From Helicobacteraceae bacterium (GTDB lineage: Bacteria; Campylobacterota; Campylobacteria; Campylobacterales; Sulfurimonadaceae), in NCBI GenBank assembly GCA_013138865.1, contig WTBY01000053.1, positions 1 through 41,774 of the forward strand: 41,774 nt of DNA, read 5' to 3'. Positions 2,892 through 41,774 of this stretch are shown here, one piece after another; position 1 is the stretch's first letter, and every line of letters starts with the position of its first letter. A model generated the notes under the pieces. The model had not been told where the DNA came from. It did not search any database and saw only the letters and a program-made list of their open reading frames with translations. Both the position numbers and the translations under genes were made by a program.

Positions 2892-3409
2892 TTTTTTATC
2901 CTTAGTCTTTTTGTAACATCGTTTGATATTTGAAGTGCATCATCGCTACTATTTTCCAAAGCTTCTATAAAGGCTTGTAGCTGAATATTTCCATCTTGAT
3001 AAGCATTGATATTAATAATCAGTAGTTTTGCGTTTCTGTGTGGCTTAACTGTATTTAAAATAGCTAAGTCGTTATCTTTAATCATTGCATCTAATTTTAT
3101 CTTGTCTATAAGTTCATTAAATTGAATAGAGAGTCTTTGAGAGTCTTTAAAAACTTTATCATTTATCTCTCTAGCTAAATCAATTAACCTTTTTGCTTCT
3201 GCTGAATGAACATCTTGACTGTTTGTCTCTTGACTTCCAAGTAGTGCGATTAATAAAGCTTCTTTTTTCTTAAACTCTATTCCAATAGTGGCTTGAAGTG
3301 CTTTTTTATAAGAGCCGTATTTATTTATAACTTCTAATGCTAATTCTAAATTATCTTCATTGTCTGATACTTCAAGAGCATCCATTAAATTTCTTGCTTG
3401 ATTAATCAT
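2888..3409 (-). CDS. Hypothetical helical protein next to the replisome organizer
   Basis: 173 residues, acidic N-terminus and basic C-terminus, predicted mostly helical. Its start overlaps the stop of the replisome organizer gene (ATGA), which suggests coupled translation. In many phages the gene after the organizer encodes a helicase loader or helicase, but no Walker motif is present here, so it could be an ATP-independent loader or partner. That assignment rests on position only. Confidence 0.55.
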   Translation of the reverse strand: MINQARNLMDALEVSDNEDNLELALEVINKYGSYKKALQATIGIEFKKKEALLIALLGSQETNSQDVHSAEAKRLIDLAREINDKVFKDSQRLSIQFNELIDKIKLDAMIKDNDLAILNTVKPHRNAKLLIININAYQDGNIQLQAFIEALENSSDDALQISNDVTKRLRIKK

Positions 3410-4281
3410 TTTATTTTACCAATCTCTATTGCAATATCTTCTTTTGAATAGCCTTTTTTAATCATAAAATTATATGTTGTTTGTTGAGCTTGAGATAACT
3501 TCTTTTCTTTAGCTGTTGGCTTCTTTGCTATTACTTGCATATTCATAGTGTCAAACTTATTTCTAAGTGCTGAACCGCTCAATACATTTTTTCTCCAAAA
3601 CATTCCATCTTCAGTAGAGTGAATCCATTTTATACAGTCTCTTAGTTGTTCAACTGTTCTTCCATCAACTCTTATAGCCAAGTCAATATCTTTAGCCCAT
3701 TTATCTAAGTTAGGTTTTTTATGATTAGGATTTATCTTAAGTATATGATTTAATAGATACTCAGCTAATCGAAAACTGTCGTCGTAACTTTTTGAAGTTA
3801 TGATATTCTTACTCTCTATCTTCTCTATCTCTTCTCTATCTCTTCTCTTCTCTGTGTTACAGTCTGTTACTTCATCGTTACACTCTATTACATCTATGTT
3901 ACATTGTAACTCTTTTTTAGCTCTATGATTTCTGACTCTCTCTGCTGACGCTGTTTCAGAGCCTATTAAAGTTAAGACTGAATTAATAATATACTGATTT
4001 TTATCAAGCTCTTCTATCATCTTATGCTTTGCCATGAAGTCTATTGTTACTTGAACATTTATAACATCTTCATCTAAGATCAGTGATAATTCTTCTGCTA
4101 AACTTTCCTCAACTTCATCAAAAGTTATTATTCCATCTGTAGGAACTGATAAAAGCATTATTTTTTGGAATATAATTACATAAGTGTCTCCACCAGCAAT
4201 TTTTCTAAGCTTTTTTATTCTTACATCTTGAAAGAAATCTATCTTTTGTTTTAGCCAAAAGTATTTCTTTGTTTTTGCCAT
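3406..4281 (-). CDS. Phage replisome organizer (replication initiator)
   Basis: 291 residues. The N-terminal domain (about 1-115) carries the replisome-organizer signature: YFWLKQKIDFF, IKKLRKIAGGDTYVIIFQKI. The C-terminal region (about 165-265) has the W...DGRT...FW...LR.KF pattern of initiator C-termini. The two are joined by a charged linker (about 121-160) whose DNA contains phased GTTAC repeats, the arrangement seen in lambda O, where the origin lies inside the initiator gene. The family binds origin repeats and recruits the helicase. The ribosome site AAAGG lies between the arms of a GTAAC/GTTAC inverted repeat, so feedback control is possible. Confidence 0.8.
   Translation of the reverse strand: MAKTKKYFWLKQKIDFFQDVRIKKLRKIAGGDTYVIIFQKIMLLSVPTDGIITFDEVEESLAEELSLILDEDVINVQVTIDFMAKHKMIEELDKNQYIINSVLTLIGSETASAERVRNHRAKKELQCNIDVIECNDEVTDCNTEKRRDREEIEKIESKNIITSKSYDDSFRLAEYLLNHILKINPNHKKPNLDKWAKDIDLAIRVDGRTVEQLRDCIKWIHSTEDGMFWRKNVLSGSALRNKFDTMNMQVIAKKPTAKEKKLSQAQQTTYNFMIKKGYSKEDIAIEIGKIK
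3814..3902. repeat. Candidate replication origin: phased GTTAC iterons beside a pyrimidine tract
   Basis: On the plus strand GTTAC starts at 3856, 3866, 3877 and 3898, with ATTAC at 3887. Spacings are 10, 11, 10 and 11 bases, one helical turn each. Next to them is a plus-strand pyrimidine tract (3811-3853) with CTCTATCT at 3814, 3823 and 3834. The block encodes linker residues of the replisome organizer (about 127-157), including an odd run of Cys-Asn pairs, which suggests the DNA sequence is what is conserved. Confidence 0.6.
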
Positions 4282-4284
4282 GTT

Positions 4285-4298
4285 GTAACCTTTGTTAC
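4285..4298 (-). promoter_or_regulatory. GTAAC/GTTAC inverted repeat around the replisome-organizer ribosome site
   Basis: On the minus strand GTAAC-AAAG-GTTAC ends four bases before the ATG, and the ribosome site AAAGG falls in its centre. The arms carry the same pentamer as the iterons at 3856-3902. It could be a protein-binding operator or a small hairpin that hides the ribosome site. Confidence 0.45.
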
Positions 4299-4326
4299 GA
4301 CCTTAAAATAAGTAAATCTGATTAAT

Positions 4327-4431
4327 GAGGGTCGAAGTCATAATCAGTAGTCTGTATTTACTCTAACCAAAGGGCTTACGAGATGTAAACCCAAAAGTCC
4401 CTAGAACTTCGACCCTCTGGTTAGAATAAAT
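4327..4431 (-). ncRNA. Structured 5' leader RNA with interleaved helices
   Basis: Read as minus-strand RNA there are three helices. P1 pairs 4431-4418 with 4369-4356 (14 bp, one G-U). P2 pairs 4417-4406 with 4338-4327 (12 bp perfect, GAGGGTCGAAGT/ACTTCGACCCTC). P3 is a hairpin 4392-4372 (8 bp, one G-U, loop AUCUC). P1 and P2 are interleaved, giving a pseudoknot or two mutually exclusive folds. On the plus strand the same pairs contain C-A mismatches, so the minus strand is the RNA. A TATAAT box lies just upstream (4460-4465) and the replisome organizer starts 46 bases downstream. Confidence 0.55.
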
Positions 4432-4459: not shown

Positions 4460-4472
4460 ATTATAGCGTAAC
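4460..4472 (-). promoter_or_regulatory. Promoter for the replisome-organizer transcript
   Basis: Minus-strand TATAAT at 4465-4460, preceded by GTTACGC (GTTAC at 4472-4468) and with no clear -35 box. The predicted RNA would begin near 4453, about 20 bases before the structured element. The GTTAC next to the -10 box matches the iteron pentamer. Confidence 0.5.
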
Positions 4473-4661: not shown

Positions 4662-4793
4662 TCAAATACTAACCAGTTTTTCATCTTTCTGGTTAGAGTA
4701 CCATTTTATTTTGTATTTCTTTTTAGCTACCACATACCCTTTTTCATTGATATGTAGTATTACTTTTACGTTATTGTTGTGGCTTTTGCTCAT
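4662..4793 (-). CDS. Small basic protein, 43 residues
   Basis: Starts MSKSHNNNVKVILHINEKGY and continues with a lysine-rich strand pattern ending LVSI. It overlaps the end of the Q-rich protein gene by 23 bases in another frame and has no strong ribosome site, so it would depend on coupling. The coding-like amino-acid mix supports it moderately. Function unknown. Confidence 0.45.
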   Translation of the reverse strand: MSKSHNNNVKVILHINEKGYVVAKKKYKIKWYSNQKDEKLVSI

Positions 4794-19039: not shown

Positions 19040-19693
19040 TAACAGTTGCACCAAACATAGCGATTAATGCTGAATGTGGAATGTTTTCTTCTTCTTTTTT
19101 TGCTTTCTCTGGTTTGTAGACTGTGATTAAATAGTCTTCTAAAGTTTTCCCTTTATTACCTAGAAACGCACCAGCCATATAAGTGAGATAAGCTATCTGT
19201 ATTTCTACACTATTGCTAGGCTCAACTCTAAAGTACATAGACCAAGAGTTTAGCTCACTGACTGACATCGTGTGCTTAATCTCAAAGACACTTTTACTTA
19301 GTGTTTTCGCTACTCTATGGAGAAGTATCTCATCTTCTTCTAGAGGTTTTCGTTTCCCTCTTCATCAACCTCATCGCCATTCCAGTTATCAATATTCTTA
19401 ATAATTTCAGCGATTGCTTTATCTGCTGAGTTTGCAAGACCGCTCAACTCTTCAACTGTCATTTTAGGTTCGATCATACATACGCTAATTTTAGTAATGT
19501 TGGCAATAAATACTTTTGAATAATCAATCTTTGGAGTTCCATCTTCATCTTTACCGTTGAAAATATCACGACTAAACTCGTTTGCTTGTTGCACTGTTGG
19601 CTGTTGTAATACTACGACTGCATTGTTTAGTGCTTCTATTTGCACCTCTTTTCTTTCTGTTACGAATTGACCAAATGGATTATTTTGTTCCAT
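19035..19693 (-). CDS. Tail assembly chaperone, frameshift (GT-type) product
   Basis: The ribosome reads the G-type frame to the GGGAAAC site at 19358-19352, slips back one base, and continues in the -1 frame to 19035: 114 plus 105 residues, about 219 in all. The -1 frame is open well upstream of its first ATG (19268), which has no good ribosome site. Its end part (SVSELNSWSMYFRVEPSNSV) resembles the T-type domain that binds the tape measure. In lambda-like phages the G and GT proteins coat the tape measure while the tube assembles. Confidence 0.8.
19340..19693 (-). CDS. Tail assembly chaperone (G-type)
   Basis: 117 residues, acidic, ending DEVDEEGNENL. It has strand/helix patterns typical of G-like chaperones (EVQIEALNNAVVVLQQPTVQ). 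It is made in excess over the frameshift product. It lies between tail tube and tape measure, the standard place. Confidence 0.75.
   Translation of the reverse strand: MEQNNPFGQFVTERKEVQIEALNNAVVVLQQPTVQQANEFSRDIFNGKDEDGTPKIDYSKVFIANITKISVCMIEPKMTVEELSGLANSADKAIAEIIKNIDNWNGDEVDEEGNENL
19352..19358 (-). promoter_or_regulatory. Programmed -1 frameshift site GGGAAAC
   Basis: In the zero frame it reads gaG GGA AAC, a textbook X-XXY-YYZ heptamer of the type used in lambda (GGGAAAG). Six bases later CTCTA...TAGAG and GAAG...CTTC (19345-19316) can form a stimulating stem. The zero-frame stop lies nine bases after the heptamer. Confidence 0.8.
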
Positions 19694-24746: not shown

Positions 24747-25318
24747 TATAAACTCCTTGCATATTTTTTAATACTTTTAATATCATCATCTGTTAGCTTA
24801 AACCACTCTCCGATAAGTTGAGAGTCTTTGTATATTTTATGTAAGTTCTTTTCAGCTTTTCTTGCATGTTTTAAAATAATTTCAAAGTCAATCCATAGCT
24901 TTTTTGGGTTGCCTGTTTGACACTGAGATAATCTATTCGTAGCATTATCTACAGTTACTCCAATCTTTGTGTACTCTCCATCTGTTATGAGATATAGTAC
25001 ATTTGATTTAACACTTTTCTTTTTATATCTCTCACTCTCTATAAGCTTAAGTGCGAAATCCTTTGTAACAATATAATCAACATTACTAAATTTACCTTTT
25101 CTTATAACTTCTTTATTGGCAATGGAAAAATCAATATCTTCAACTGCTCCAAGTGTATTAATTCTTCTTTTTATCCATCTTGAATATGCTGTATCAATTT
25201 TTAGATATTTATGAATATCTCGACTATTTCTTGAATTTGTATTTTTTCCATTTCCGAAAATAATACTCATTTCTTTAAAACCTCTTGGTTTATCTGGAAC
25301 TATCATTAATGTGTTCAT
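24746..25318 (-). CDS. AntA-type antirepressor fused to a T5orf172/GIY-YIG domain
   Basis: 190 residues. N-terminal part (about 29-95): NSRDIHKYLKIDTAYSRWIK, RRINTLGAVEDIDFS resembles the AntA/AntB domain of phage antirepressors. C-terminal part (about 107-185): SNVLYLITDGEYTKIGVTVD, then NRLSQCQTGNPKKLWIDFEI and LHKIYKDSQLIGEWFKLTDD matches T5orf172 (MUG113), a GIY-YIG-like nuclease domain; YLI...YTKIG stands for the GIY...YIG pair. Such fusions occur in temperate phages. It may relieve repression or be a mobile cassette gene. Confidence 0.75.
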   Translation of the reverse strand: MNTLMIVPDKPRGFKEMSIIFGNGKNTNSRNSRDIHKYLKIDTAYSRWIKRRINTLGAVEDIDFSIANKEVIRKGKFSNVDYIVTKDFALKLIESERYKKKSVKSNVLYLITDGEYTKIGVTVDNATNRLSQCQTGNPKKLWIDFEIILKHARKAEKNLHKIYKDSQLIGEWFKLTDDDIKSIKKYARSL

Positions 25319-25500
25319 TTTGCTAACTCTGTAATTTGTCTATCTTTCATCTTTATTATTTCTTTGTAATCTGAAACCATAATTATAAGTTCATCTGATT
25401 GCTTTTGTGATTCATTGAATTGATCTTGAAGATTACTAATCGAAACTGCATTTTTTTGTAGTTGCTTCTCTAGTTTCTTGATGTACTTTTTCTTTTTCAT
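25315..25500 (-). CDS. Small coiled-coil protein, first gene of the accessory cassette
   Basis: 61 residues, Lys-rich start (MKKKKYIKKLEKQLQK) and heptad-like pattern throughout. Overlaps the antirepressor start by four bases. It lies just after the structured RNA at 25543-25636. Function unknown. Confidence 0.6.
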   Translation of the reverse strand: MKKKKYIKKLEKQLQKNAVSISNLQDQFNESQKQSDELIIMVSDYKEIIKMKDRQITELAK

Positions 25501-41603: not shown

Positions 41604-41769
41604 TTATATCACGCTCCATTTGTACTACACTTGCCTCTACATCACATACATCACTTCTTATTGACTCAGGGCATCCGTCTGACTCTCTAATGATATGCTT
41701 CATATCTGTGATTAAGTCCTCTATTTGTGCTAACTTTGCTTTCAATATTTCAGTTGTTTCTATTTGCAT
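41596..41769 (-). CDS. Junction-spanning small protein, complete copy
   Basis: 57 residues: MQIETTEILKAKLAQIEDLI, then TDMKHIIRESDGCPESIRSD and an acidic end. It is complete only because of the 127-base end repeat, and its continuous reading through the join supports a circular genome. Helical coiled-coil character. Its ribosome site GGGAGG is seen at the other end of the window (near 131-136). Function unknown. Confidence 0.7.
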   Translation of the reverse strand: MQIETTEILKAKLAQIEDLITDMKHIIRESDGCPESIRSDVCDVEASVVQMERDIND

Positions 41770-41774
41770 ATCAC
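41648..41774. repeat. Direct terminal repeat, right copy
   Basis: Second copy of the 127-base end repeat. Dropping one copy gives a unit of 41,647 bp. The virion could have circularly permuted ends or cohesive ends; the sequence alone does not decide this. Confidence 0.95.

Follow-up and report, generated by a model that had tools for sequence, protein, structure and literature searches.

RNA control of initiator synthesis through leader pseudoknots is well established in plasmids. Among tailed phages, few cases of such RNA control are known to us (P4 CI and P1 c4). The repZ (repA) pseudoknot of IncI-alpha, IncB and IncL plasmids lies in an initiator leader in which a segment of the 5′ hairpin is complementary to a gene-proximal segment; the first hairpin carries a UUGGCG loop and is the target of an antisense RNA, the loop contact is short, and translation of a leader peptide opens the second structure. 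The rep attenuators of pT181 and pIP501, which are antisense-controlled, place alternative leader folds before rep. In the type I toxin-antitoxin system timPR, the timP mRNA has mutually exclusive folds in which two hairpins pair, and its SL1-SL3 pseudoknot is essential for translation (PMC11228461). In phage P4, the CI RNA is processed from the leader, pairs with seqA and seqC, and terminates transcription of the replication genes (PMC4825925). P1 and P7 also have complementary segments on one leader, and their c4 RNA targets the ant mRNA (PMC12197685). By analogy, the phage leader described here is best read as a counterpart of the repZ (IncI) and timP pseudoknots, or of the same-transcript complementary RNAs of P4 and P1; the likeness is one of mechanism alone, and the leader belongs to none of these groups.

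The window, that is, the whole 41.8-kb contig analysed (41,774 nucleotides), carries a 127-bp direct repeat at its two ends (1-127 and 41648-41774), as a circular assembly would show, which makes it probably a circular and complete phage genome, some 41.6 kb in size. It encodes terminase, capsid and tail proteins, whereas the ORFs examined included neither an integrase nor a repressor. The genes surrounding the leader are all minus-strand genes, the one that follows it being the Phage_rep_org_N replisome organizer that the preliminary description had called. The parts of the locus, listed in transcript order, are as follows:

4460-4465, minus strand: candidate -10 box TATAAT of a leader promoter, from the sequence, with a putative transcript start at about 4450
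4418-4431, minus strand: helix A 5′ strand, AUUUAUUCUAACCA, extendable to 4412 (20 bp)
4405-4417, minus strand: helix B 5′ strand, GAGGGUCGAAGUU, invariant in every relative
4396-4408, minus strand: mini-hairpin E, AGUUC-UAG-GGACU, in the predicted A-state fold
4372-4392, minus strand: hairpin C, GGGUUUAC-AUCUC-GUAAGCCC, within helix A
4356-4369, minus strand: helix A 3′ strand, UGGUUAGAGUAAAU
4318-4347, minus strand: hairpin D, CUGAUUAUGA-CUUCGACCC-UCAUUAAUCAG, a predicted fold with the helix B 3′ strand in its loop
4327-4339, minus strand: helix B 3′ strand, GACUUCGACCCUC
4289-4293, minus strand: rep Shine-Dalgarno AAAGG, from the sequence, in a small hairpin GUAAC-AAAG-GUUAC in predicted folds
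3406-4281, minus strand: gene behind the leader, a replisome organizer of 291 aa (Phage_rep_org_N, E 3.5e-22; phrog_5968)

Within the minus-strand RNA, 4431-4418 and 4369-4356 form helix A (14 bp, including one G-U), and 4417-4405 and 4339-4327 form helix B (12 perfect pairs and a terminal U-G, 13 bp in all), the two 5′ strands adjoining with zero spacer. Recomputation returned exactly the coordinates first given for A, B and the inner hairpin C. The placing of the structure in minus-strand RNA was also borne out, as the minus strand pairs better than the plus strand both in A+B stacking energy (-45.6 vs -38.5 kcal/mol, as stacking sums without pseudoknot loop costs) and in the z score of the nested minimum free energy (-4.5 vs -2.2). 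Among 1000 dinucleotide shuffles, whose mean was -20.1, none reached the minus-strand stacking energy (z -5.8), and the pair ranked first among 2972 sliding windows covering both strands of the whole contig. An artefact of chance or composition, for which nothing speaks beyond the small number of sequences, is contradicted by these statistics and by the homologs described below, and is scarcely credible. Two parts were absent from the preliminary description: a 20-bp extension of helix A (4431-4412 / 4375-4356), which overlaps the B 5′ strand so that the full-length forms of A and B exclude each other, and a fourth hairpin, D (4347-4318). A search of Rfam 15 returned no family at the gathering score and only chance matches up to E 10, and a tRNA/tmRNA search returned none.

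Constrained nested folding assigns -43.1 kcal/mol to the A state and -43.0 kcal/mol to the B state. As these nested states are predicted to be equal in energy, the helices look like alternatives, in agreement with the earlier suspicion that the two long helices may be so. In the growing transcript, the A hairpin is predicted to dominate as long as the B 3′ strand is not yet complete; by transcript length, the predicted minimum is B at 126-150 and A again at 156 and beyond. With about 36 and 17 nt in its remaining two connectors, a full pseudoknot with the 14-bp form of A may still be feasible despite the zero 5′ spacer. In the A state, mini-hairpin E, whose pairing is retained in the relatives L315 and L316 as read from the alignment, masks part of the B 5′ strand, while the loop of D displays CUUCGACCC, the core of the B 3′ strand. 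The hairpin at the ribosome-binding site is identical in both predicted states, and the B 3′ strand and D leave the Shine-Dalgarno uncovered; coupling to translation is thus not visible in the window leader itself.

Upstream of helix A, L315 likewise has a TATAAT (GGTATAATAC). A two-hexamer promoter scan did not report the TATAAT at 4460-4465. Upstream of the leader lies a CTAACCAG hairpin (window 4669-4700), and at 4700-4690 on the minus strand TACTCTAACCA forms a near copy of the A 5′ strand that is fully complementary to the A 3′ strand; from its sequence, a role as a competitor or protein site is possible.

Relatives of the element were sought by DNA searches of phage records and 100 related genomes, and in IMG/VR by way of the Rep, Sak and TerL proteins; none of these searches found it, and the window Rep protein has no close relatives among viral contigs. 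An inverted-repeat pattern derived from helix B uncovered three IMG/VR contigs with the complete element (L315, L316 and L317). L315 and L317 are identical across the 5.1 kb compared, leaving three distinct family sequences including the window. In these two further phage types (L315/L317 and L316), the element shares 77-79% of its positions with the window across 133-143 nt, and elsewhere the only match between the window and these contigs at E<1e-5 is a 92-nt stretch of a YopX-like gene (L315/L317). Gap lengths in the alignment are not multiples of three, which marks the element as non-coding. All three contigs share its sequence together with helices A, C, D and B, and with the window they constitute a new family. 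The preliminary description had staked its reading on the presence of the pairing in close relatives, and the pairing is present in those found. A second pattern scan added nothing, the exact core occurring in only three IMG/VR contigs, and a covariance model, R1, built from these sequences brought in no new member from the 399 Campylobacterales genomes it was run on (398 besides that of the window).

Within this family, helix A has 17 pairs, with one compensatory change from A-U to G-C in L316, two one-sided changes that keep the pair, and one mismatch in L315. Three pairs of hairpin C show two-sided changes, and all pairs of hairpin D are kept in all three distinct sequences. Helix B is invariant at 12/12 pairs, the 13th being U-G or U-A, and so provides no covariation here. 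The structure pairs 98.8% of alignment cells, against at most 49% for slid versions, and the covariation across A, C and D, drawn from only three distinct sequences, is weak (equalled by 56 of 500 shuffles). The genes behind the element differ: in L315 it stands at the head of a replication operon, before an 80-aa ORF, a DUF6291 protein and a DnaB helicase, and in L316 before a short ORF with ORF6C similarity. Since the next gene is not rep in these two contigs, and several initiator types follow the Fusobacterium leaders described below, what the leader is tied to is the replication module, not the organizer gene.

Leaders of Phage_rep_org_N genes were also gathered from genomes and viral contigs. 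Interleaved pairs with z<-3 occurred in 10 of 155 leaders, compared with 1 of 465 stretches drawn at random from these loci; at z<-4 the counts were six and none. Under a stricter control, with long leaders in the same loci, the counts were 8/48 for rep and 18/264 for other genes; eight of these 18 were Fusobacterium copies before initiators of other families. The real contrast, a modest one, is between replication modules and the rest, and most Phage_rep_org_N genes are without such a leader.

The full plan consists of hairpin A, the B 5′ strand in its loop, and the B 3′ strand in hairpin D or at the ribosome-binding site. It recurs with unrelated sequence in Fusobacterium phages, in the group L181, L312 and L148, in L083 (24-bp A, 10-bp B) and in L049 (16-bp A, 11-bp B, with B covering the Shine-Dalgarno); overall, leaders of this plan stand before replication initiators in phages of distant bacteria, namely in Fusobacterium phages, other IMG/VR phages and single Fusobacteriaceae and Campylobacterales contigs. 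In the Fusobacterium leaders, as in L083, it is the 3′ arm of D (CUCUCC, CUCCU) that has the potential to pair with the Shine-Dalgarno. The sense strand folds better than its complement in 8/8 leaders, and none of the three phage genomes scanned (this contig, FNU4 and Funu2) has an interleaved pair stronger than that of its initiator leader. In Funu2 (L314), interleaved leaders also stand at 27619-27530 and 8376-8290, before a DNA methylase and a Rha-family regulator. The window has two further structured elements on its minus strand, each equalled by 0 of 500 shuffles. At 19778-19700, a loop segment UCCUUGUUG of a 23-bp hairpin pairs with UAACAAGGG, the Shine-Dalgarno region of a 117-aa gene that starts at 19693 behind the presumed major tail protein. 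A third interleaved element, at 25636-25543 (13-bp A, 10-bp B), has its B 3′ strand in a hairpin loop and a TATAAT just upstream, and precedes a 61-aa ORF (25315-25500) followed by an AntA/T5orf172 gene.

The Fusobacterium leaders, which test the plan and not the window sequence, comprise 12 different sequences. Their pairs were counted on a hand-set alignment, as MAFFT had shifted the B 5′ strand by one base. Helix A keeps 19/19 pairs in 12/12 variants, five of them with two-sided changes, and five pairs of helix B also show two-sided changes, the B variants being AGCCUGUC/GACAGGCU, GCUUUGGCAG/CUGCCGAAGC, GCUUUGGUAG/CUACCAAGGC and GCUUUGGCAG/CUGCCAGAGC. These two-sided changes provide the best evidence for the reality of both interleaved helices within a single RNA. 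Behind the leaders lie genes for Phage_rep_org_N, HTH_36/phrog_19658, phrog_428, HTH_36 with Phg_2220_C, and O-like phrog_678 proteins; one leader precedes an HNH gene.

These comparisons bear on the possibility that the arms are DNA sites, forming an origin or operator bound by the initiator or a regulator, with the pairing a by-product of inverted repeats. The invariance of both B strands would fit such sites, as would the occurrence of CTAACCAG three times in the contig, each time in the intergenic region of the leader. However, the compensatory changes in A and C of the window family and in A and B of the Fusobacterium leaders preserve RNA pairing and not a fixed site, the G-U pairs favour the sense RNA, and hairpins C, D and E need no explanation as DNA sites. 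We regard this reading as improbable, and less probable than transcription attenuation, in which D would be a terminator and the B pairing an antiterminator. D is strong in L181, L312 and L148 (-24 to -27 kcal/mol for the segment) and is followed there by a U run, a resemblance to the pT181 and pIP501 attenuators, and D of the window is followed by AUUUACUUAUUUU. Yet D of the window, AU-rich and weak, would make a poor terminator at best and went unreported by the terminator scan, and a U run is missing at this place from the leaders of Fusobacterium phages, L083 and L049; attenuation is therefore an unlikely account of the leader. In Lachnospiraceae loci such as L077, L081 and L086, a conserved leader before rep, with a long hairpin and a U run (CGCAAGGGCAG..CUGUCCUUUUUGUGCG), looks from its sequence like an attenuator.

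The IncI-type repZ leader and the window leader share their position before an initiator gene and the complementarity between a segment of the 5′ hairpin and a gene-proximal segment. They differ in several respects: the one belongs to plasmids and the other to a phage, the UUGGCG loop is lacking in the window, B is 13 bp long rather than a short loop contact, and the window Shine-Dalgarno is not visibly covered. Nor does the window family have a conserved leader peptide; an AUG inside D is conserved, but its frames differ (MTSTLINQIYLF, MNFDPH and MDFDPQ, as read from the alignment). The timP mRNA, likewise alike in plan, differs in its genes and sequences and has an antitoxin RNA, whereas none is known for the window leader.

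Copy control of the IncFII/IncI type would further call for a counter-transcript from the plus strand. In the window, only a CATAAT (4339-4344, plus strand) could serve as its -10 box; boxes matching at 5/6 positions are common in AT-rich DNA, and no terminator was seen for a plus-strand RNA. A structured leader before Phage_rep_org_N is found as well in other Campylobacterales elements that share this Rep family (L045-L047, L056-L064 and L132), and an antisense TATAAT occurs in 8/13 related Campylobacterales leaders (shuffling expects 1.7). Unlike the window, however, they form a single hairpin with a UUUGGCG/CGACCAAA loop, and the window has neither the UUUGGCG nor the CGCCAAA loop. Antisense control is thus a poor candidate for the window leader, ranking below even the DNA-site reading, and its assignment to this Campylobacterales type was rejected, there being no shared sequence, loop motif or consistent interleaving. 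As for those leaders themselves, an antisense TATAAT comes after a loop of the UUUGGCG or CGACCAAA type in L045, L046, L047, L056, L057, L059, L064 and L132, which suggests IncFII/IncI-like antisense control.

Trans control of the P4 CI or P1 c4 kind is ranked next after a cis-acting switch, although it too is on the unlikely side. By analogy with those phages, the A hairpin would be cut out as a small RNA able to act in trans as well: its B 5′ strand would pair with B 3′ strands carried by other transcripts, so that replication genes are turned off and groups of immunity or incompatibility are defined. The window leader does carry two complementary segments before a replication operon, as do the P4 CI leader (PMC4825925) and, before antirepressor genes, the c4 leader (PMC12197685). 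Moreover, B is invariant in the window family and differs between Fusobacterium groups, as specificity groups would, and related plans precede regulatory genes (Rha and the methylase in Funu2) and the 61-aa ORF before the AntA gene in the window, as the element itself precedes the ORF6C-like ORF in L316. On the other side, the structure differs from that of P4 CI and P1/P7 c4, the covariance model of the C4 antisense RNA (RF01695) did not match the window leader, and lysogenic immunity is not evident, there being no integrase or repressor among the ORFs examined.

On balance, we favour a structured, cis-acting two-state leader RNA that governs how far the replication module of the phage is expressed, and we infer that the B pairing is the regulated step and initiator expression the output. 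Hairpin A, with E and C inside, would form first during transcription and D next, giving the default state. Full complementarity links the B 5′ strand, at the top of A, with the D loop (the B 3′ strand), and pairing of the two would open the top of A and all of D, making a two-state switch; in relatives without the A/B overlap, it would instead knot both hairpins together. The winning state would decide ribosome entry into the initiator gene or, in some relatives with a terminator-like D, the passage of RNA polymerase. Common to the leaders are matching segments in the 5′ hairpin and in or beside the gene-proximal hairpin, and the likely output differs between them. For the structured origin RNA or primer also proposed in the preliminary description, no specific support emerged.

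The leader probably represents a device, so far undescribed, for controlling phage replication through RNA; no such phage leader was described in the literature searched, which covered few subscription journals. More tentatively, it may belong to a widespread class of modular RNA cassettes, swapped among otherwise unrelated phages, with matching segments on a 5′ hairpin and a gene-proximal one. An interchangeable B pair would then serve as a specificity code for RNA-level control of replication initiators, and of regulatory genes in some phages, across several bacterial phyla. The interest of the system lies in a switch-like leader that is more conserved than its neighbouring genes, and in a plan that recurs with compensatory swaps before non-homologous initiators. 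If this reading is true, RNA-level control of phage replication would become a testable general rule, and the leaders would offer ready-made two-state RNA parts.
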